Source: a virus. Taken from it: a DNA stretch of 30,234 nt. The notes under the pieces are model-generated. The model made no database searches, had not been told where the DNA came from, and saw only the letters and a program-made list of their open reading frames with translations. Positions 2,745-29,608 of the stretch are shown here, piece by piece. Each line of letters starts with the position of its first letter. Position 1 is the first letter of the stretch. The position numbers and the translations under genes were made by a program. The stretch spans positions 1 through 30,234 of the IMG/VR virus record IMGVR_UViG_3300042891_000351; one strand, 5' to 3'.

Positions 2745-3910
2745 GAAAATTATTTTACATGGGACTTGAGCCATACAAGGCTCGCTATACATTACAACTA
2801 ACTGACTGGAACGAACGTGTATTCAGAAAGCGTGGGATACATTACGTAATTGTTCCGGGCGATACATTATCTAGTGATCAAAATATCGTAGTTGGTCAAG
2901 TCCTTGACGCGCATGGTCGCACACACTATAGCCTCACACAGATGGCTAATCTCATCAAGTTGATGAAGAGTGGCGAAGTCACAAGTGAAGATGTGATTTA
3001 CTTTGAAGATATGTACACTTCAGGTCTTGAGAGTTTAGCATATATCATCAAGCAAGTTCCAGAACAATATCGTCCAAAGATTTTTGTTCGCTGTTTGGCA
3101 CAAACTATTGATCCAGATGATTTCTTACATGTATGGGGCATGGATGGCTTCATGCGCAAGTATGAAGAAATGATCAATGAATTCTGTATTATTCTTGCTA
3201 GCAATGAAGAGATGGTCATGCATATGAAGGTTGCAGGCTGGAAGGCTCCTATCTACAATATCAGTGGTCTAGCATTTGGTAAAGATGAAGTGCGTAGTCG
3301 TGTGAAATCTATCAAGCCATTTGAATTGAAGAAGCGTAGAGTTGTTTTTGCTGCACGTTGGGATCAAGAAAAACAGCCAGACTTTTACATGGACATTATT
3401 GAAAAGTATACCAAGGCACACAACGGTGACGTTGAATTCGCATTATTGAGTGGTGCAAAACTACGTAGCAATAATAGTTCATATATGGAACGCACATACA
3501 GATTAGAACGTGAAGGCAAACTAAACATCTATAGCGACCTCAGTAAAGACGAATATTATGGGATATTGAACGACAGCCGTGTATTATTCAACTGTGCTTT
3601 GCAAGACTGGGTTAGCAATACTGTCAGCGAAGCGGATGCATTAGGATGTAATGTTGTATATCCAGCATATCGCAGTTTCCCAGAAACGTTCGCTAATGAT
3701 CATACACGATTGTATGTACCTTGGTCACAGGATGACGCATTGAATAAACTCAATCATTGGGTATTCAATGAACATCCACGAATCGGACAAATTAGCGACT
3801 GGACTGATAAAACGATAGATAGAATATGCGATATCCTTGAAGGCAAGGGTGAAGAATGGTTGCGTATGAGTACTGATTATCGTAAGCATACAAGAGAAAG
3901 CAAATACTAA
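2741..3910 (+). CDS. glycosyltransferase, GT-B fold, family 1/4-like
   Basis: 389 aa. The C-terminal half has the nucleotide-sugar binding layout of GT-B enzymes: a strand-start RVVFAARWDQEKQPDFY (about 204-220), then a variable stretch, then VSNTVSEADALGCNVVYPAYRSFPETF, the acidic loop and glycine turn that contact the donor. The N-terminal half is less conserved, as expected for the acceptor domain. There is no signal peptide or membrane helix, so it should act in the cytoplasm. It is coupled by ATGA to the ManC-type cupin, so a mannose-derived donor is possible. The acceptor could be a phage virion protein, modified DNA or host surface glycan; nothing in the sequence decides this. Confidence 0.7.
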   Translation: MRKLFYMGLEPYKARYTLQLTDWNERVFRKRGIHYVIVPGDTLSSDQNIVVGQVLDAHGRTHYSLTQMANLIKLMKSGEVTSEDVIYFEDMYTSGLESLAYIIKQVPEQYRPKIFVRCLAQTIDPDDFLHVWGMDGFMRKYEEMINEFCIILASNEEMVMHMKVAGWKAPIYNISGLAFGKDEVRSRVKSIKPFELKKRRVVFAARWDQEKQPDFYMDIIEKYTKAHNGDVEFALLSGAKLRSNNSSYMERTYRLEREGKLNIYSDLSKDEYYGILNDSRVLFNCALQDWVSNTVSEADALGCNVVYPAYRSFPETFANDHTRLYVPWSQDDALNKLNHWVFNEHPRIGQISDWTDKTIDRICDILEGKGEEWLRMSTDYRKHTRESKY

Positions 3911-3920
3911 GAGGTAATAT

Positions 3921-4310
3921 ATGAGTTGGCAAGCAACATTGACGATTAACAATAATACTAACTACAACATCACGGTGACACATAATACAGTAGGGGATAT
4001 TGGTAATATAAAGCCGGGTACTAGTTGGACAAATACAACTAGTGATGTAAACAACACTAACGCATTGAAGTTCTGGCAACAGCCAAACATATGGTTCATG
4101 CAAGGTAGTGCTAGTTTTGGTCCTACTGCTGGTGTATGGGTAGATCGTGGTTGGATGGATCCGAATGGTCAAACAATTACTATGACTGCTAATGCGAACG
4201 GTACTGTGTTCGTACAAAGCAGCAATGGTGGTAAAGAAATTCTTGCTTGGAATCAGTTTGAGCAAGGTGGTACGATTGAATTAACTTTTAACAATGTAGG
4301 AGAAAAGTAA
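3921..4310 (+). CDS. beta-rich hypothetical protein
   Basis: 129 aa, with a GAGGTAA ribosome binding site just upstream. The sequence alternates Thr/Asn/Val strands and glycine turns (TLTINNNTNYNITVTH near the start, GGTIELTFNN at the end) and contains several Trp residues in the middle (FWQQPNIWFMQG). This pattern suggests a small beta-sandwich, reminiscent of aegerolysin-like or lectin-like folds, but I cannot assign a family. No signal peptide or membrane helix is seen. It shares a one-base stop/start overlap with the histone-like gene downstream. Confidence 0.65.
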   Translation: MSWQATLTINNNTNYNITVTHNTVGDIGNIKPGTSWTNTTSDVNNTNALKFWQQPNIWFMQGSASFGPTAGVWVDRGWMDPNGQTITMTANANGTVFVQSSNGGKEILAWNQFEQGGTIELTFNNVGEK

Positions 4311-4498: not shown

Positions 4499-4665
4499 TG
4501 GACATTCAACCTAAAGATACTAGCCGTGGGCACTTTTATGCTAGTATAGCAAAGAGTGTTGTTCGTATAGGTGCAGGAGCATTATTGATCGCAGGTAATA
4601 TCGTGCTTGCAGGTGTGTTCCTGATACTAGCAGAAACACTAGGGGTCGTAGAAGAGGTTGTATAA
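4498..4665 (+). CDS. small single-helix membrane protein
   Basis: 55 aa, beginning [16 protein letters not shown]. One strongly hydrophobic segment runs from about residue 20 to 46 (rich in Val, Ile, Leu, Ala, Gly), followed by an acidic tail [10 protein letters not shown]. The ATG at 4498 overlaps the stop of the histone-like gene by one base and its own TAA overlaps the guaC start by one base (TAATG), so it is embedded in the operon. Its function is unknown; a holin or antiholin role cannot be excluded but nothing specific supports it. Confidence 0.7.
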
Positions 4666-5693
4666 TGCGTATTGAAGAGGATATCAAATTAGATTTCAAA
4701 GATGTACTATTCCGTCCCAAGCGTAGTACATTAAGTAGCCGCAAAGAAGTAGAACTTGAACGCAAGTTTACTTTTAAACATAGCGGCAAGGTCTATAACG
4801 GTATCCCCATCATGGCTGCTAACATGGACGGTGTTGGCACACTTAAGATGGCTGAGGAAATCAGCCGTCATAAACTTTTCACTTGTTTGACAAAGAGTCA
4901 TACATTTGATATGTTGGCTGATAATATTTTTAGTATAGGTACTGATTACTTTGCTGTTAGTACTGGTACTAATGATAAAGATTTAGAAAGACTACAACAG
5001 ATTTTCAATGTCTATCCTGAAATAGAATATATCTGTATTGACGTTGCTAATGGATACAGCGAACATTTTGGTATATTCGTCAGCAAGATTCGTGAAAAGT
5101 ATCCAAAGAAAACTATTATTGCTGGTAACGTTGTTACCGCAGATATGACACAGGAGTTGATATTACGTGGAGCAGACATCATCAAAGTTGGAATCGGACC
5201 GGGTAGCGTTTGCACTACTCGCATTCAGACTGGCGTTGGGTATCCCCAGCTTAGTGCTATTATGGAATGTGCTGACGCCGCTCATGGTCTTGGTGGCCAT
5301 ATCATTGCTGACGGTGGATGCACTTGTCCTGGTGACATCGCTAAAGCCTTTGGGGCTGGTGCAGACTTTGTGATGTTGGGCGGCATGCTTGCCGGACATG
5401 ACGAAGGTGGCGGACATATTGAAGATGGACATGTAACCTTCTATGGCATGAGTAGTGATACTGCCATGAATAAACATAATGGTGGTGTTGCTGAATATCG
5501 TAGTAGCGAAGGTCGCACAGTACGTGTTCCATATCGCGGCGCTGTAAGCCATACAGTACTTGATATATTGGGCGGTATACGCAGCACTTGTACATATGTT
5601 GGCGCAGATAGCCTAAAGAACTTGAGTAAATGCACAACTTTTGTAAGAGTAACACAGCAATACAACGGTGTATTCGCAAATGGCAAATCCTAA
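4665..5693 (+). CDS. guaC: GMP reductase
   Basis: 342 aa, about the length of E. coli GuaC and very similar along its whole length: the start [20 protein letters not shown], the substrate loop GPGSVCTT at 178-185 with catalytic Cys183, [41 protein letters not shown] and GGMLAGHDE. It lacks the CBS insert of IMP dehydrogenase. GuaC reduces GMP to IMP with NADPH and releases ammonia, in the cytoplasm. One residue noted is AANMDGVGT where cellular enzymes usually have MDTVGT. In a phage with FolE, QueD, QueE and DpdA it could rebalance purines or recycle guanine. The 3' end overlaps the next gene by 14 bases. Confidence 0.92.
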
Positions 5694-20798: not shown

Positions 20799-22064
20799 TC
20801 AGTGGATCAACAAATAACTTCCCAAAACGTCACGGCGGGTTGCAGCAACGTCACCGTCACCCGGCTTGATGATAACGTTGTATTGTAATGGTTGCCCTTG
20901 TGGTGTTTGTAACATCTCATCATAAGTCAATATTGAATTAGGATTTATATTATATTGTTTAGCGATACGATCCTTCAATACTTTTATCTGAGTTGGACCC
21001 TTATATTCCCATTTTTTAATAACTTTTGGCTTGCCAGTTTTCTTATCTATTTTTGCTTGACCATTTCTATCTAAATCAGGATACTCAACACGTTTAACTA
21101 AATCATTAAACATAGTTTTATCAACAACGCTACTATGTTTAGTTTTACTAAAATCTATTTGTTTTTCTTGGGCTCGTAATGCACCGCGACTAAAATTAAA
21201 CACAAAGTTATCTGGATGTTGTCCTGATGCGATACCTGCTATTTTAGTATAAGCATAAAACTGTATGTCCGGAAATGCATTTGCTACTTCAAACGCTAAA
21301 TCTTTATAGGCTGGACTAAAGAAGTCGCCTGCATCATGCCATCGTATTACAACCTGTGTTCCTTTCTTACTGTTTTTGTCATATACAGTTTTTAATTCTT
21401 TCATCAACATGTTTTTCCAACCTTCTGGATCGTTAATCAAGAAGTTAAGATTACGTGTCATATGTGTGCTTGGAGGACTATATTGTACATAGCCACCTTT
21501 ACCAACGAAGCAAAATGTTTTACATTGACCTGCTCCTGGGCAAGTGTTAATGATCATAAATTCATTGGTACTTTCATCTACTGCTAATCCAACGATGGCG
21601 GGCAAACCGATATTAAAAAATATGCTAGTTGAACCATCACTATGTTTCATCTTGTCGTTTTGTTTCAGGATATATTCAGGACGTGTAGTAAATAATTGTT
21701 TTAATTTTTCAAGGTTAAATTCGTAATCTCTCTGTCCAGGTATAGCCTCTATCTCGCCCCCATCAGCAGGTTTGTAAATAATTGGAGTTATATTACTGCT
21801 ATGAACATATGGAAAATCGTACTTGTCGCGTTTGTCTTTTTGTCTCTTTTCTACTCTTCCTAAATACCCTTTTAACTCTTCTTCACCGGGCTTTCTATAT
21901 GTTGCGCCCAAAAACTTATCGTCAGCCTCTTCAAGTCCCTGATTGGTTTGTTGGGCAACAAAGTCTGATAAAGACATAACCTCTACGCCCTTTAGCATTG
22001 ATTGTTTACGCGCTTTGGGTTTAGAATTCTCTGATATGATATCTAAAAGTTTACGGAAATCCAT
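20799..22064 (-). CDS. GP88-like phage protein with Cys cluster
   Basis: 421 aa. The central region matches the GP88 family known from mycobacteriophages and other phages: INTCPGAGQCKTFCF (Cys175, Cys181, Cys185, i.e. CX5CX3C), then MTRNLNFLI, VVIRWHDAGDFF (238-249) and IQFYAYTK (267-274). The biochemical role of the family is unknown; the conserved Cys set and RxHxxGDF motif suggest a metal or Fe-S site. About 150 N-terminal residues and 120 C-terminal residues are extra. It is transcribed against its neighbours from the 44-base divergent gap shared with uvsE. Confidence 0.7.
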   Translation of the reverse strand: MDFRKLLDIISENSKPKARKQSMLKGVEVMSLSDFVAQQTNQGLEEADDKFLGATYRKPGEEELKGYLGRVEKRQKDKRDKYDFPYVHSSNITPIIYKPADGGEIEAIPGQRDYEFNLEKLKQLFTTRPEYILKQNDKMKHSDGSTSIFFNIGLPAIVGLAVDESTNEFMIINTCPGAGQCKTFCFVGKGGYVQYSPPSTHMTRNLNFLINDPEGWKNMLMKELKTVYDKNSKKGTQVVIRWHDAGDFFSPAYKDLAFEVANAFPDIQFYAYTKIAGIASGQHPDNFVFNFSRGALRAQEKQIDFSKTKHSSVVDKTMFNDLVKRVEYPDLDRNGQAKIDKKTGKPKVIKKWEYKGPTQIKVLKDRIAKQYNINPNSILTYDEMLQTPQGQPLQYNVIIKPGDGDVAATRRDVLGSYLLIH

Positions 22065-22068
22065 GATG

Positions 22069-22097
22069 TTGACATTCTCAAATAGTTATAGTAATAT
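22069..22097 (+). promoter_or_regulatory. sigma-70 promoter for uvsE
   Basis: TTGACA (22069-22074), 17-base spacer, TAATAT (22092-22097). The predicted start near 22104 is only about 5 bases before the uvsE ATG at 22109, and no ribosome binding site is visible, so the mRNA would be nearly leaderless. Confidence 0.65.
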
Positions 22098-22102
22098 TTA
22101 TC
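22095..22102 (-). promoter_or_regulatory. possible T4-late-type promoter for the reverse unit
   Basis: Read on the - strand this is GATAAATA, one base off the T4 late consensus TATAAATA, about 30 bases before the GP88-like ATG. It overlaps the -10 box of the uvsE promoter. Similar AATAAATA strings occur by chance in A+T-rich coding parts of the window, so support is limited. Confidence 0.3.
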
Positions 22103-22108
22103 GTAATT

Positions 22109-23137
22109 ATGTCATTCAATAGTAATATCAAGCGTATTGGTTTTGCCTGCAAATGGGCAGAAATCAACAAGAAAGGCGAGATCGCTAGTGCTGACGGGTT
22201 CAACACTGGTGGTACTACCCACGCATGGGCAAAGCGTCAGAGTAGCCCGCGCATTGTTGAAGAAAAACTAATGGAAGTTGCTAAACGCAACATCACCAAT
22301 ACACATAATCTAGTCAAGAAGGTCGCTAGTCTTGAGCCCGGTCTGCGTATGGTACGACTAACTAGCGATATGTTCAGTTTCTATACTATGGATGAGTACA
22401 AGTACTTCTGGAAATCGCGTGAGGTACAGGACAGTTTGGAACGTTGGATGGCTCCTATCGGCGAGACTGCTAGGGCAAACGATGTACGACTATCGTTTCA
22501 TCCTGATCAGTTCGTAGTACTTGCTAGCGACCGCCCTGAGGTGGTAAATAAGAGTATAGAGGAGTTTGAATATCATGTGGATATGGCCCGTTGGATGGGG
22601 TACGGTAGAAAATTCCAGGATATCAAGATCAATGTACACATATCGGGCAGACAAGGTCCAGCCGGTATCGTCAGCGCACTCGGTAGGCTCTCGCCCGAAG
22701 CAAGAAATAGTATTACCATCGAAAACGAAGAAATGTCCTGGGGACTCGACTCCACCCTCGAACTGGCTGGACATCTGGGTCTAGTACTAGACATTCATCA
22801 TCATTGGATCAAGACAGGTGAATACATACAACCCAATGATGATCGTATCAAGCGTATTATTGACAGTTGGCGTGGTGTGCGCCCTGCTATGCATTTTAGC
22901 ACATCACGCGAAGATGGCGTCATTGAGCGCAATACAACCGAACGACATGACCTACAGCGATTGATGGAAAGTGGGTATAACAAACAGAAACTACGCGCAC
23001 ATAGCGACTATTTCTACAACGATGCTATGAATCGTTGGGCATATGAACATTGGCAGTGGGCTGACATCATGTGCGAAAGTAAGGCTAAAAATCTTGCCAG
23101 CATGAAACTTTACGATACATATAAGAGTTATGTTTGA
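22109..23137 (+). CDS. uvsE: UV damage endonuclease
   Basis: 342 aa. A TIM-barrel UVDE/UvsE protein: VRLSFHPDQFVVLAS (126-140), NVHISG (175-180), ITIENEE (202-208), LVLDIHHHW (225-233), MHFSTSRE and RAHSDYF supply the expected His, Glu and Asp metal ligands (for example His131, His177, Glu205, Asp228, His231). It nicks DNA 5' to pyrimidine dimers and other lesions, in the cytoplasm. Phage copies are known, including in sunlit waters. It has its own promoter and overlaps the next gene by 8 bases. Confidence 0.92.
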   Translation: MSFNSNIKRIGFACKWAEINKKGEIASADGFNTGGTTHAWAKRQSSPRIVEEKLMEVAKRNITNTHNLVKKVASLEPGLRMVRLTSDMFSFYTMDEYKYFWKSREVQDSLERWMAPIGETARANDVRLSFHPDQFVVLASDRPEVVNKSIEEFEYHVDMARWMGYGRKFQDIKINVHISGRQGPAGIVSALGRLSPEARNSITIENEEMSWGLDSTLELAGHLGLVLDIHHHWIKTGEYIQPNDDRIKRIIDSWRGVRPAMHFSTSREDGVIERNTTERHDLQRLMESGYNKQKLRAHSDYFYNDAMNRWAYEHWQWADIMCESKAKNLASMKLYDTYKSYV

Positions 23138-23534
23138 GAAACTAAAGAATCTTTTCAAAAAGCCAGAGCCACCTAAGCCTGCAGGTAAACCTAAGGCTGA
23201 AAAGAAACTATCGCCAAAAGAAGAAGCAAATAGTAAAGGCGAACCTTACATAGCAATTTTAAAAGTAGATTTAGATCCTAATAACTTAAATAACGGAAGT
23301 TTTGAGTTAGATTGGAATGACAAATTTATAGTAAACTTAGTGAAGCAAGGTTACAAATTAAAACCTACTGATACTGACAATGACATCGTAGACCGCTGGT
23401 TTCAAACTGTTTGTAGAAATATCGCGCTAGAAGTTTACGAGCAAGAAGTTGCTGACCCTGATAAACGTGCCCCAAATGACTTGAGAGTGATCGGTAACAG
23501 AGATTTGGGTAACGGTCGTACTGAAATCAGTTAA
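23130..23534 (+). CDS. hypothetical protein; end of gene duplicated downstream
   Basis: 134 aa. The N-terminal 40 residues are Lys/Pro-rich (FKKPEPPKPAGKPKAEKK) and probably disordered; the rest is a compact acidic domain ending NRDLGNGRTEIS. The ATG at 23130 overlaps uvsE by 8 bases. A diverged copy of its last codons (LGNGRTEVS-stop) reappears at 24586-24615 beyond the methyltransferase gene, which suggests a recombination event at this locus. No family recognised. Confidence 0.7.
   Translation: MFEKLKNLFKKPEPPKPAGKPKAEKKLSPKEEANSKGEPYIAILKVDLDPNNLNNGSFELDWNDKFIVNLVKQGYKLKPTDTDNDIVDRWFQTVCRNIALEVYEQEVADPDKRAPNDLRVIGNRDLGNGRTEIS
23502..23534 (+). repeat. direct repeat, copy 1 (gene end)
   Basis: Contains TTGGGTAACGGTCG (23505-23518), identical to 24586-24599, followed by a stretch that differs mostly at third codon positions. 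Here it is the true 3' end of the 23130 gene. Confidence 0.8.
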
Positions 23535-23549
23535 TAATGTAAAAGTATC

Positions 23550-24593
23550 GTGGCTAAAACCACTAAGAAAAAATATACCATTGAACATCTTGGTAAGGTT
23601 TTGTACACCGACCATTATTATGACCTGCCTGTTGAAAAATGCCTTGAATTAAAACAAAAGTATTATACTAAACCCGACTACAACCTTGTAGAAGAAAATT
23701 TGAAAAGTGTAAAGCGCGGTGGTACTGGGATAGGTGATATAGTTAACTATTACTATAAAGATTTGATGGCAAAAGTAAAACTTGAAACACCACGCTGGAG
23801 CATAGAAGAGGTATTTGAGTCTAATGATCTAATCAGATATTTTTATAGCCGCACACTAAGCAGTGAAAAAGTATATCCAAAAACAAATAGTGATATTCAA
23901 AATTTTGAGACTGCACTAAGGATATCAGGTGGAGGCGTTGCTATGAAGCCAAGTAACTTTCCAATGCAGACGGTTGACCATATTTTAAAGTATTATAATG
24001 TCAATAACAAATATTATGATTTCAGTTGCGGTTGGGGTGTGAGACTACTCAGCGCCATGAAAAATAAAGTAGAATATTATGGAACAGACCCTAATAACCT
24101 ATTGGTTGACAGATTATTTGAAATGGCAAAGGATTATGATACTGTAAACCTTACAGATAGCAAATACGACATACGATGCCAGGGTAGCGAGGTATTCGTT
24201 CCTGAATGGGAAAACACGATAGGATTAGCATTTAGTAGCCCTCCTTATTTCAACCTTGAAGATTACAGGATAGGCAATCAATCATACAAGCCTGGTACTA
24301 CATACCAGCAATGGTTAGATAATTATCTGAAGCCTACTTTATCTAACATTAAAAGATATCTCATTGATGAGGGCAAGTTATTGATTAATATAAAGAACTT
24401 TTCAAACTATAGGTTGTACGAGGATACATTATCCTTGGCAAAAAGTTTGGGCTATCATCATATACAGACCACTGACCTAAAAAACAAGGTAAGACCTAGT
24501 GCCAAAACCAATCTGAATACAGATGAAAGCATAATGGTACTGTCAAAAAACAAAGTTGAACCTGCAGGTATCACGTTGTTTGATTTTGGGTAA
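23550..24593 (+). CDS. DNA methyltransferase, N4-cytosine or N6-adenine type
   Basis: 347 aa, GTG start at 23550. SAM-binding motif I is YDFSCGWGVRLLSAM (156-170), YYGTDPN is motif II, and the catalytic motif IV is SSPPYFN (229-235). The S-P-P-Y form is most often found in N4-cytosine enzymes. Motif I comes before IV, and an N-terminal region of about 140 residues precedes both. No restriction partner is seen, so it is an orphan that could protect phage DNA. No clear ribosome binding site. The gene sits exactly between the two copies of the repeated gene end, marking it as an inserted cassette. Confidence 0.75.
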   Translation: MAKTTKKKYTIEHLGKVLYTDHYYDLPVEKCLELKQKYYTKPDYNLVEENLKSVKRGGTGIGDIVNYYYKDLMAKVKLETPRWSIEEVFESNDLIRYFYSRTLSSEKVYPKTNSDIQNFETALRISGGGVAMKPSNFPMQTVDHILKYYNVNNKYYDFSCGWGVRLLSAMKNKVEYYGTDPNNLLVDRLFEMAKDYDTVNLTDSKYDIRCQGSEVFVPEWENTIGLAFSSPPYFNLEDYRIGNQSYKPGTTYQQWLDNYLKPTLSNIKRYLIDEGKLLINIKNFSNYRLYEDTLSLAKSLGYHHIQTTDLKNKVRPSAKTNLNTDESIMVLSKNKVEPAGITLFDFG

Positions 24594-24615
24594 CGGTCGC
24601 ACCGAAGTTAGTTGA
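24582..24615 (+). repeat. direct repeat, copy 2 (remnant of a 23130-type gene end)
   Basis: TTGGGTAACGGTCG (24586-24599) repeats 23505-23518; translated from 24586 it gives LGNGRTEVS-stop, against LGNGRTEIS-stop in the intact gene. CGT/CGC, ACT/ACC and ATC/GTT differences are mostly synonymous, as between related phages. It overlaps the methyltransferase stop at 24591-24593. Confidence 0.75.
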
Positions 24616-24638
24616 CTTTCGCAATCACACAGTATAAT
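24612..24638 (+). promoter_or_regulatory. sigma-70-like promoter for the exonuclease unit
   Basis: TTGACT (24612-24617) and TATAAT (24633-24638) with a 15-base spacer; a 17-base spacer to TAATAT (24635-24640) is also possible. The -35 box overlaps the stop of the repeat remnant, in the 72-base gap before 24666. Confidence 0.6.
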
Positions 24639-24671
24639 ATACGAATATTATTCTGTTAAATAGGTGTGCTT

Positions 24672-25691
24672 GTGAAATACGCTCTCATTGATACTGCTAA
24701 CACGTTCTTCCGTGCCCGACATATCGCAAGTCGTAACAGCGATACATGGGAGAAGATCGGCATGGCATTACACCTGTCATTGTCTAGTGTAAATCAAGTT
24801 GTACGCAAATATGGCATTGACCATGTTGTGTTCTGTCTTGAAGGTCGTAGTTGGCGCAAAGATGTCTATCCTCAGTACAAGGCACATCGTAAGGTTGCTG
24901 AACAAGCGTTAACTGAGAGTGAAGCAGAAGAAAATAAAATGTTCTGGGAAACGTATGATATGTTCACTACGTTCCTACGTGAGAAAACAAACGTCAGTGT
25001 GTTACGCCATGAACGGGCTGAGGCAGATGACCTTATCGCAAGATTCATACATCTGCATCCCAACGATGAACACTATATCATTAGTAGTGACACTGACTAT
25101 GTTCAATTGATTAGTGATAACGTAAAACAATATAACGGTGTCGCTAACCAATTGATTACCCTTGAAGGTTATTTTGATGACAAGGGTAAACCTATCAAAG
25201 ACAAAAAGACTAAAGAACCTAAACTGTTAGGTGATCCGCAGTTTCATCTCTTTGAGAAGATCATGCGCGGTGACGCAGGTGACAATGTGTTCAGCGCATA
25301 TCCTGGCGTTCGCACTAAGGGTAGCAAGAACAAGGTTGGCTTGATTGAGGCTTATGCTGATCGTACAAAGCAAGGTTTCAACTGGAACAACATGATGCTA
25401 CAGCGTTGGGCTGATCCTGACGGTGTTGAATATCGTGTCAAGGACTTGTATGAGCGCAATAAACTTTTGATTGACTTGACCGCACAGCCCGACGAGATCA
25501 AGGATCTTGTTGATGTTGCTATCACTACCGGCGTGCGCATCAAAACTACTCCGCAGGTCGGTATTCATTTCATGAAATTCTGCGGCAAGTATGAACTCAA
25601 CAAAGTCAGTGAGCAGGCTGAGACTTATGCTAAGTGGTTGAACGCGCCATATACTGGCCAATATAAAGATATCGCAATGGAGGTTGCATGA
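24672..25691 (+). CDS. 5'-3' exonuclease / RNase H-like flap nuclease
   Basis: 339 aa from the GTG at 24672, which has TAGGTG 5 bases upstream; another GTG at 24666 adds two residues. PIN/FEN-type nuclease: YALIDTANTFFRARH at the start, ERAEADDLIARF, IISSDTDYVQLI and MRGDAGDNVFSAYPGVRTKG give the clustered acidic residues that bind two metal ions and the helix-hairpin-helix region. T4 RNase H and the 5' nuclease domain of DNA polymerase I belong to the same family. It would remove RNA primers and flaps in phage replication. It overlaps the next gene by 4 bases (ATGA). Confidence 0.88.
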   Translation: MKYALIDTANTFFRARHIASRNSDTWEKIGMALHLSLSSVNQVVRKYGIDHVVFCLEGRSWRKDVYPQYKAHRKVAEQALTESEAEENKMFWETYDMFTTFLREKTNVSVLRHERAEADDLIARFIHLHPNDEHYIISSDTDYVQLISDNVKQYNGVANQLITLEGYFDDKGKPIKDKKTKEPKLLGDPQFHLFEKIMRGDAGDNVFSAYPGVRTKGSKNKVGLIEAYADRTKQGFNWNNMMLQRWADPDGVEYRVKDLYERNKLLIDLTAQPDEIKDLVDVAITTGVRIKTTPQVGIHFMKFCGKYELNKVSEQAETYAKWLNAPYTGQYKDIAMEVA

Positions 25692-26143
25692 CAGAGTTAA
25701 TCGCTAAACCAATTATTAAAGATCAATACTGGGTCGTTACTGACGGTGAACGTAAGGTCGGTAACGTCCAAGCCAATAGTGCTGGTTATGAAGTCATCCT
25801 TAACGGCAGCACATTGCAGTTTAACAATACTTTAGATATTAAGAAACAGACTAAGATCAGTTTTCAGCCCATGAAGTCTAACAAGACTAAGGTAGAACTG
25901 CCCTATCCAGATTACCCTGTACCTAATAAAATCTATAACAGTTTTTTTGACGTTAAACGCAAGTTGCATATTTTTACTAAAACCAAAAAAAGCAAGTGCT
26001 ATCATGTCGCAGGGTGGTTTTTAGTAGAGCAGAATGGTCAAAAACAAGTCACTTTTTGTCCAAAATACATCTTTATTCAGCGATATCAGTATACTGGGCC
26101 ATTTAAAACAGAGGCCGAGGTAAATAGTCTACTAAATACTTGA
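25688..26143 (+). CDS. hypothetical phage protein
   Basis: 151 aa. A mixed alpha/beta soluble protein with many Lys and aromatic residues; DQYWVVTDGERKVGNVQANSAGYEV near the start looks like paired strands and KCYHVAGWFLVEQNGQKQV suggests further strands. It is coupled to the exonuclease gene by ATGA, so it may act in replication. No family recognised. Confidence 0.7.
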   Translation: MTELIAKPIIKDQYWVVTDGERKVGNVQANSAGYEVILNGSTLQFNNTLDIKKQTKISFQPMKSNKTKVELPYPDYPVPNKIYNSFFDVKRKLHIFTKTKKSKCYHVAGWFLVEQNGQKQVTFCPKYIFIQRYQYTGPFKTEAEVNSLLNT

Positions 26144-26144
26144 C

Positions 26145-26348
26145 ATGGTTAACATAAAACTGTTTTTTGACAAAGTTTCAAAACTTGAAGGGAAGAAAAC
26201 AAAAGACCTAGTATTAGCGATGAGCGATGCTAAATTGTTAAGGGATGAAATAGCGAAATTACTTATAGATTTAAATGAGGCTCAAAAATCTAATAAGGCT
26301 GAAGAAGAGGTAGTTAAAGTAGAAATTAGAGGTGGCACATTTAAATGA
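26145..26348 (+). CDS. small helical hypothetical protein
   Basis: 67 aa, starting one base after the previous stop. It is largely helical and charged (SKLEGKKTKDLVLAMSDAK, then LRDEIAKLLIDLNEAQ) with a C-terminal strand VVKVEIRGGTFK. No membrane segment. The stop overlaps the next start (ATGA). Function unknown. Confidence 0.7.
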   Translation: MVNIKLFFDKVSKLEGKKTKDLVLAMSDAKLLRDEIAKLLIDLNEAQKSNKAEEEVVKVEIRGGTFK

Positions 26349-26638
26349 GTAGAACACAGCCAAAAATAATTTTAGAACATGTTGATAAGATAACATATAA
26401 ATGCGATCAAATCGTAGAGGCGAGCGGGATCTGGGCAGTATTTTATGATGGTCAGCCTATAAACTTAAAAAGTCAACATTATCTCGCTAACGAGGTTGCC
26501 CCTAAATATAAAAAGACGAGTTTCAGCAATCCAGGACATGCTAGAAATCTCTGTCGCAAACTAAACGGTTTATTCAAAACAGATAAGTTTAGTGTAGTGT
26601 TCATGAATCAAGGACGACAAGTTTATCCTGATGAGTAA
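26345..26638 (+). CDS. hypothetical protein
   Basis: 97 aa, basic, with IWAVFYDGQPINLKSQHYL in the middle and a helix RNLCRKLNGLF. ATGA overlap with the previous gene and an 8-base overlap with the next. No family recognised; it belongs to a run of small A+T-rich genes (26145-27047). Confidence 0.7.
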   Translation: MSRTQPKIILEHVDKITYKCDQIVEASGIWAVFYDGQPINLKSQHYLANEVAPKYKKTSFSNPGHARNLCRKLNGLFKTDKFSVVFMNQGRQVYPDE

Positions 26639-28040: not shown

Positions 28041-28072
28041 TTGCTATCTGTTCTTGTAATGTAGGTATGCAA

Positions 28073-29608
28073 ATGAAAAAGTTGTGTGTGATTTCTGTGC
28101 TTGCCCTTTCAGGTTGCGGGGGCGGAGGTGGTAGTCAACCATCTACTCCTGCTGCTTCTAGTCCTCCTGTAACAACAACGTCTACGCCACAGGAAGTAGT
28201 CTACTTCCGTGAAGTAAAAAACGCTATTCCCAGTCTGTCACCATACTATGATAGGACATGTGGGCACAAGACTAACAGTTTTTTAGTACCTGCTGTAGAT
28301 TTAAACAAAGACAATCGTAAAGATTTATTGATAGTCTTGTGGTGTGAAGCCCCTACTTGGGGAATGACTATGGAAGGTCCTACAAAAAATACACTTGTGT
28401 CTCTGATACAAAATAGCGATGGGACATTTAGATTAGGTAATCAAGAGATATTTGGTAAAAGTTTTGTTGATTTGTCAGGTCTGATTGCTGAAGGTGTTGA
28501 TGTTGCTATAGGCGATTATAATGGGGATAAGAATCCTGACATTCTTTTTGTCACCACGTGGGAAGATGGTAGGTTTGGATCAGTGAGTAATGGGCAACAT
28601 AGTTGGAACAGTTGGCCAGATGTATTGTTAAGCCAGCCTGACAATTCTTATAAGGTTGAGAGAATTGATAACAGAGCGATGTATAACGAGGCAATCCTTA
28701 TTAAAGGAAAAGATCGTGATCTCTTTAGCAGCAATGGATATATCTTTTCTTATCAAAATCAAGTTTGGTCAAAGACATATATCAACTTTCCTCCAAACAC
28801 CGAAACACAAGGACTTTCTAAGGCATCTATATTTCTAGACAGCAATACTGTCACTATGGGTCTAGAAAGTAAACTGAATTTCGGTTGGCAATTAGGTTCA
28901 ATCAACATCACTAACTGTTGTGGATTGGGTGATCATACTAGGTATACACTTAATGACTCACTTATTTTAAGTCCCAAGAAGCAAGTTATGGTGTATGGCA
29001 ATGCTACGTCGGGTGATTCACTAGAATCACTGGCTACTATTGATGATGTTGAATATCTTATGCCTTCATATAATAGTGCTTGCGTGTATACCGAAGGTCA
29101 GGATACTTATGTCGCAGCAGAGTTTTTCGCACTCAAGTTGCTTGACAAGTATACTGGACAACGTTTGTCATGGTATTCATCTAGCAATACGTCGGGCAAC
29201 GTAGACTTTCGTAATTCTGTGACCCGCGTACATCTTTTTAAAATCACTAATGGAAAAATTTCAAGAGTGAAGCCTGCTGCCCTCAATAAGGATATTACCA
29301 CTACACACTATCTCAATTGTGTAGACGTTAACAACGATAATAAGATGGATATCGTCGCATACCGTTGGGGACACCAGCAGGAAAAAAGTGTGATTTTTCT
29401 AAACAATGGAAATGGGAATTTTACAGAAGTTCCGTCAAGCAAGATTCCAGATATCCTCAAGGTATATCACGGGCATCATGCTATGTTCAGCGACCTCAAT
29501 AATGACAACCGCACAGAGATTATTTACGGTCCTGGATTGGGCTACCCAACAGGGTATGCTGGAAATTACACGGATTATCAAGTGTTTCAAAGCGTAAATC
29601 CTTTATAA
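28073..29608 (+). CDS. secreted lipoprotein with FG-GAP/VCBS-like repeats
   Basis: 511 aa from the ATG at 28073 (TAGGT lies 6 bases upstream); an ATG at 28067 adds two residues. The signal peptide is MKKLCVISVLALSGC with a lipobox LSGC, so Cys15 would be lipidated, followed by a Gly/Ser/Pro/Thr linker. At least four calcium-loop motifs of the FG-GAP type occur: DLNKDNRKD (about 76-84), DYNGDKNPD (148-156), DVNNDNKMD and DLNNDNRTE near the C terminus. These suggest a beta-propeller displayed outside the inner membrane or on the outer membrane. It looks bacterial in origin and may change host surface properties. Confidence 0.85.
   Translation: MKKLCVISVLALSGCGGGGGSQPSTPAASSPPVTTTSTPQEVVYFREVKNAIPSLSPYYDRTCGHKTNSFLVPAVDLNKDNRKDLLIVLWCEAPTWGMTMEGPTKNTLVSLIQNSDGTFRLGNQEIFGKSFVDLSGLIAEGVDVAIGDYNGDKNPDILFVTTWEDGRFGSVSNGQHSWNSWPDVLLSQPDNSYKVERIDNRAMYNEAILIKGKDRDLFSSNGYIFSYQNQVWSKTYINFPPNTETQGLSKASIFLDSNTVTMGLESKLNFGWQLGSINITNCCGLGDHTRYTLNDSLILSPKKQVMVYGNATSGDSLESLATIDDVEYLMPSYNSACVYTEGQDTYVAAEFFALKLLDKYTGQRLSWYSSSNTSGNVDFRNSVTRVHLFKITNGKISRVKPAALNKDITTTHYLNCVDVNNDNKMDIVAYRWGHQQEKSVIFLNNGNGNFTEVPSSKIPDILKVYHGHHAMFSDLNNDNRTEIIYGPGLGYPTGYAGNYTDYQVFQSVNPL

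Follow-up and report, generated by a model that had tools for sequence, protein, structure and literature searches.

A solitary methyltransferase gene as probable mobile cargo beside a duplicated gene end in uncultivated large phages

In a virus record of 30,234 bases (the window, meaning the whole stretch of DNA that was analysed), the end of one gene occurs twice: once in its own place and again behind the neighbouring methyltransferase gene, directly ahead of a predicted promoter. What does the second copy record, and why has it stayed? When phages exchange cargo, the seam is usually invisible. Here it can be read, with empty sites, several independent acquisitions and what is probably a founding join of nine bases, so that one may ask how an operon takes in a foreign gene while the promoter of the following gene stays intact. 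The account we favour, with a probability of roughly 80% as a whole, is that, in a group of large uncultivated phages, the solitary methyltransferase is mobile cargo of a slot between two genes, here called A and E. The cargo would have been joined to its site at a microhomology and spread by homologous recombination, with a remnant that saves the downstream promoter.

The four genes of the locus, together with the linker, repeat copies and exonuclease promoter described below, lie on the plus strand. Gene U (22109..23137) encodes a uvsE-like UV damage endonuclease (PF03851, E=8.6e-37) and likely heads a U-A-M operon; a promoter scan placed a promoter-like TTGACA-17-TAATAT ahead of it (22069-22097). 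Gene A (23130..23534; 134 aa), the start of which overlaps the uvsE stop, is found in hundreds of related contigs and weakly matches phrog_13349, 'virion structural protein' (E=9e-9). A cassette-specific linker of 15 nt (23535..23549), common to all carriers with few changes, leads to the GTG start of the methyltransferase gene M (23550..24593; 347 aa). The right flank of the slot is gene E (24666..25691), which encodes a 5'-3' exonuclease (PF02739, E=1.6e-20; phrog_107, E=1.6e-34).

The product of M is a probable N6-adenine/N4-cytosine DNA methylase, judging by profile matches and motifs. The SAM-binding FxGxG-like and (S/D/N)PP(Y/F) motifs, present as DFSCGWG and SSPPYF, are invariant across 11 aligned relatives; PF01555 is matched at E=4.8e-6, marginally above the curated cut-off (27.1 versus 26.7 bits), and PADLOC MTase_II at E=7.7e-7. 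Neither M nor gene A matched an NCBIfam profile, a search of the M profile against solved structures gave no match at E 0.001, and the AlphaFold model of M (mean pLDDT 40.5) was too poor for use. Among relatives with named hosts, the nearest are in Mammaliicoccus/Staphylococcus phages, at 35–37% identity, and are annotated as DNA methyltransferase or hypothetical protein; these solitary phage methyltransferases are similar over 93–96% of M, but the phages and the gene context differ. Because codon differences between copies of M are mainly synonymous (for example, 90 to 22), M appears to be a working gene under selection, and it may modify the phage's own DNA against nucleases of the host or of rival phages.

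A sequence-only reading of the window had pointed out that gene A ends in LGNGRTEIS-stop and that LGNGRTEVS-stop recurs after the methyltransferase, and this was borne out. The upstream copy (23504..23534) is the true 3' end of gene A and closes with TAA, whereby TTGAC is lost; the downstream copy (24585..24615) is a remnant of another gene A allele, non-coding past the stop of M. Over the 29 nt of 23504-23532 and 24585-24613, at a spacing of 1,081, the copies are identical at 25/29 positions (86%), which makes them the longest direct repeat within 22000-26500. LGNGRTEVS-stop, closed by TGA, can be read only out of context and overlaps the methyltransferase stop: the downstream copy opens with TTTGGGTAA, nine bases that belong to M as its final two codons and stop. 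The differences had been called mostly synonymous, which holds for two of the three codons concerned (CGT/CGC and ACT/ACC) but not for ATC/GTT, which exchanges I for V.

Could the likeness be due to chance, or to selection that arrived at one stop and -35 context twice, independently? Such selection would favour TTGAC at both sites, but the copies are alike over 29–31 nt. Their ungapped score of 17 (+1/-2) exceeds that of every one of 20,000 Markov resamples (mean 6.2, maximum 15), on which ground a chance repeat was rejected, and the next best place for the repeat in the whole window scores 10. Moreover, every pattern match in a collection of 2.9 million contigs proved to be either the end of a gene A or the remnant that follows M, which leaves this explanation scarcely credible; among these matches no gene A end was found behind cargo other than M, and loci with other cargo showed no comparable gene A end before E. 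The same scar structure is present in contigs of other samples (L082, L083, L084 and L095), and it is thus not an assembly artefact. We also considered TTTGGGTAA as a genome-wide recombination or terminator word and rejected it, as the window holds three occurrences and the over-represented words do not include it.

Well over 200 loci were collected by using gene A, M and E as queries, along with a degenerate pattern made from the repeat. Among the 111 distinct loci in which A is followed by E, 34 are empty, 7 hold this methyltransferase, 66 hold other cargo and 4 hold a more distant methyltransferase. The sequence-only reading had proposed a comparison with relatives lacking the methyltransferase, and such relatives, in which uvsE, gene A, promoter and exonuclease adjoin directly, are numerous; its own counter-scenario, a methyltransferase in all relatives and a repeat due to chance, is contradicted by these loci and by the resampling. 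In empty loci the end of gene A is followed after about 53 nt (50–55) by the exonuclease, with 50 or 52 nt from gene A stop to E in the close group, and the spacer of close empty loci resembles the sequence after the downstream copy in carriers. One pair, filled L085 and empty L024, agrees at 408/408 nt of gene A and 53/53 nt of the spacer, with 97.3% identity in uvsE and 95.3% in E, and three empty loci have exactly the gene A sequence of L085. Filled and empty loci are both present in each of two metagenomes (3300044733 and 3300010354).

Carriers of M are scattered in each of the trees built from gene A, the exonuclease and uvsE, and a single carrier clade is rejected in all three (AU p = 1e-58 for A, 0.005 for E and 3e-7 for uvsE). 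Across five carrier lineages, identity ranges from 87.7 to 99.6% in M, from 65 to 99% in A and from 80 to 96% in E. In nine of the ten carrier pairs the identity of M exceeds that of A, in eight it exceeds that of E, and in seven it exceeds both: L085 and L035, for example, share 99.6% identity in M versus 82% in A and 84% in E, and L007 and L085 share 95.7% versus 72.5% and 80%. The exceptions are L007/L009, in which A is closer, and the window paired with L007 or L009, in which E is slightly closer (90.0 and 89.1%) than M (87.7 and 88.7%), so that inheritance together with E is possible there. Both marks of mobile cargo, empty sites in close relatives and a cargo phylogeny at odds with that of its flanks, were found, and these comparisons support the passage of M between distantly related phages into the A–E slot. 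As 3/6 related contigs carry a RecA-family gene, means for recombination appear to be at hand.

The same loci can be read in the opposite direction, with M ancestral and the empty sites produced by losses, in which recombination between the flanking repeats restored a clean gene A end. Precise excision would leave just the empty site that is seen, more distant methyltransferases adjoin gene A too, and looping-out is plausible in L007/L008, in which the two copies are 31/31 identical; individual empty phages may still be losses. As the whole story, however, this would require far slower evolution of M than of either neighbour in the phage pairs in which M is 95.7–99.6% identical and the neighbours are 65–84% identical, and it leaves the origin of the remnant unexplained, so we regard it as improbable.

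Mobile cargo could also have been placed by a transposase- or integrase-type insertion. The repeat resembles a target duplication of some 22–31 nt (22 nt past the M stop, or 31 nt with the shared TTTGGGTAA), but no such gene and no terminal inverted repeats are present at the cassette ends (23535 to 24665), relatives of M occur elsewhere around gene A with other flanking repeats, and the two copies in the window are different alleles. An insertion of this type is very improbable.

The alleles themselves are informative about how the scar was formed. The upstream copy in the window resembles the gene A tail of L208, the nearest relative by that gene (...ACTGAAATCAG), and the downstream copy matches the gene A ends of other phages, L197, L207 and L216 (...ACCGAAGTTAG). 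This supports the proposal that the second copy came from a related phage allele. The copies are not diverged in every carrier, as those of L007/L008 are identical. For these, homogenisation between the copies is the simplest reading, since their sister L009 (gene A 99.2%, M 97%) has a decayed remnant. Four remnant haplotypes were seen: that of the window, that of L007/L008, one shared by L009, L023, L085 and L035, and that of L098. As decay is alike in L009, L023 and L035, the remnant travels with M.

The nine bases shared by the two genes offer a candidate for the founding join. At 24585..24593, TTTGGGTAA is the native 3' end of M (F-G-stop), and the same bases stand at 23504-23512 in the gene A end, out of frame. 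F-G-stop is invariant in 11 methyltransferases, most of which have no remnant, and the methyltransferases of L012/L042 end in exactly TTTGGGTAA with no remnant behind. A resampled 3' end matched gene A over at least nine bases with a probability of 0.004, which is low but not vanishing. Because TTTGGGTAA is both the conserved end of M and part of the gene A end, the founding join was probably one crossover at this microhomology, and because methyltransferases of about 69% identity lie directly behind gene A in several loci, one crossover at nine bases would yield the whole structure. A phage with M directly behind gene A would have recombined on TTTGGGTAA with a phage in which the gene A end adjoins E, giving in a single step the order A, M, the recipient's gene A end, promoter and E. 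The founding event would be old; among the loci gathered, neither a donor with the same linker nor a direct intermediate was found. For the later spread, the comparisons of M with its neighbours show that the finished cassette, remnant included, passed from one diverged phage to another through homologous recombination in flanking sequence. The scar had been taken as a footprint of homologous recombination inserting the methyltransferase, and this fits the later spread (the trees, and M at 99.6% versus flanks at 82–84%), but the founding join looks microhomology-mediated.

A separate arrangement was observed in L240 and the related L072 group (L072, L073 and L076), in which a methyltransferase of about 70% identity lies just before gene A and a duplicated leader of 49 nt forms its flanks. 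Given this case, the surroundings of gene A have received a methyltransferase repeatedly, and on at least two occasions a flank was duplicated. In L269 (around 3001-4002), a repeat of 59 nt was considered as a further insertion scar and set aside, as by eye it looks instead like the ends of two tandem methyltransferase-like genes with similar C-termini.

Why would a duplicated gene end be kept? The predicted promoter of E lies at 24612..24640, where a -35 element, TTGACT, overlaps the TGA of the remnant and is followed by TATAAT at 15 nt or TAATAT at 17 nt. The terminal bases of gene A are AGTTGAC in the majority of close empty loci, with TATAAT 15 or 17 nt further on, within a conserved palindrome. 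TTGAC is kept in the downstream copy of all carriers and is missing from the upstream copy in all carriers seen whole. At the gene A stop it is present in 20/30 empty versus 7/70 occupied loci (Fisher p = 2e-8, a test that ignores relatedness). As the TGA stop of gene A overlaps the -35 TTGAC, the last bases of the remnant would preserve the E promoter, and M, which shows no promoter of its own, would be read as the last gene of the uvsE–A operon. The rest of the remnant would be free to decay, as it has in some lineages. The duplicated gene end thus probably keeps the E promoter intact, and selection on a -35 box that shares bases with a stop codon would be a simple reason for the scar to persist. 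Both the promoter and the operon are predicted, and the regional promoter scan gave 17 matches versus 13.9 in shuffles, which is little excess.

Over the -10 region lies an AT-rich inverted repeat, ATAATATACGAATATTAT (24634..24651), a perfect 18-nt palindrome in most close relatives (ATAATATACGTATATTAT). It could be an operator or a hairpin like that of promoter early stem-loop (PeSL) cassettes; its hairpin z ranges from -1.9 to -3.6, and its core, TATAATATACG, occurs once in the window. Covariation in the palindrome was judged by eye and was not convincing.

The A–E slot receives more than M: other cargo in it falls into about twenty clusters. One family of 197 aa lies behind M in L007/L009 and kin, the only loci with such a gene after M, and elsewhere directly behind gene A. 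Its members (L009 6527-7117, L207 766-1359, L002 3129-3740 and the rest of alignment A2) have no convincing Pfam match, and their alignment has conserved Y, K-x-G-x-S, R and E positions. The model of the L009 cargo is confident (pLDDT 82.5). Foldseek alone gave no significant match for it, but realignment singled out GIY-YIG, to which all of the top five structural entries belong (Z 5.8–6.2, next 3.8). This is moderate evidence, with middling Z, that the gene next to M in L007/L009 encodes a nuclease of the GIY-YIG fold. Pfam searches with ten slot cargo proteins gave mostly no match, with weak hits to MUG113 and HNH below the cut-off, so the restriction-enzyme-like reading of some cargo is by eye only. 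In L012, L033, L045 and L118 a short unassigned protein and a second methyltransferase-like gene occur in pairs in the slot, possibly phage-borne restriction-modification systems.

These genes raise the question of whether homing drives the transfer, with slot nucleases cutting empty alleles and repair copying the slot, M included, from a carrier. HNH-like and GIY-YIG-like genes are found in the slot of many loci, the predicted GIY-YIG gene next to M retains its Y, R and E. T4 is an established case of intronless homing accompanied by co-conversion (PMC2988022), and other phages have regions of exchange with nuclease genes at their borders (PMC10448857). However, the cassettes of the window, L085 and L035 have no nuclease, and the nuclease within the element that marks a free-standing homing endonuclease is absent from the window. 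Homing would add a driver to the mobile-cargo account and not replace it, and we consider it possible but on balance doubtful. A more tentative extension, to which we give a rather low probability, casts the slot as an arena of phage–phage conflict, in which slot nucleases of the GIY-YIG-fold, HNH-like and unassigned nuclease-like kinds cut rivals' alleles, the M cassette is the matching immunity gene, spreading as a protector, and the duplicated gene end serves as built-in homology arm and promoter saver. As methyltransferases and nuclease-like genes gather there, the slot is a place to look for weapons and shields between phages.

The process itself is phage modular shuffling at a hotspot, already known (PMC2327257; PMC10448857; PeSL as described via PMC4503421); what is unusual here is how clearly the scar can be read and that it seems to save a promoter. 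In PeSL-mediated shuffling of T4-type phages (Arbiol 2010; Comeau 2014; as summarized in PMC4503421), short repeated regulatory stretches at module borders let variable genes swap between conserved ones, and the palindrome over the E promoter, able to form a hairpin, may be a further likeness. PeSL cassettes are characterized by an early promoter with a stem-loop that recurs at several module borders of a genome. The repeat in our case is mainly a coding gene end with a stop codon on which the promoter -35 falls, and the join showed no terminator. The free-standing homing endonucleases of T4 (seg/mob) are inserted between genes, often lack a promoter and are then read from upstream, and share with M the orientation of the neighbours and the need to keep a downstream promoter (PMC2988022). 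Several of them keep that promoter inside the inserted gene, whereas here the duplicated gene end does so, and the cargo in the window is a methyltransferase without a nuclease. In the nuclease-bordered exchange of HEG islands (Barth et al. 2023, PMC10448857), a nuclease-rich slot and cargo more alike than its surroundings are again seen, but the exchanged units are essential modules of >10 kb flanked by nucleases, whereas here one gene of ~1.1 kb is the cargo and the scar is discrete. Homeologous recombination in phage mosaicism (Martinsohn et al. 2008, PMC2327257) likewise involves flanks some 20% diverged; lambda Red was measured there, whereas our case draws on sequence comparison and a RecA-family gene in relatives.

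Elsewhere in the window, 4665-5693 encodes an IMP dehydrogenase/GMP reductase domain protein (PF00478, E=3e-72), here in a phage, and 28067-29608 encodes a protein of 513 aa with FG-GAP repeats (PF13517, E=2e-18).
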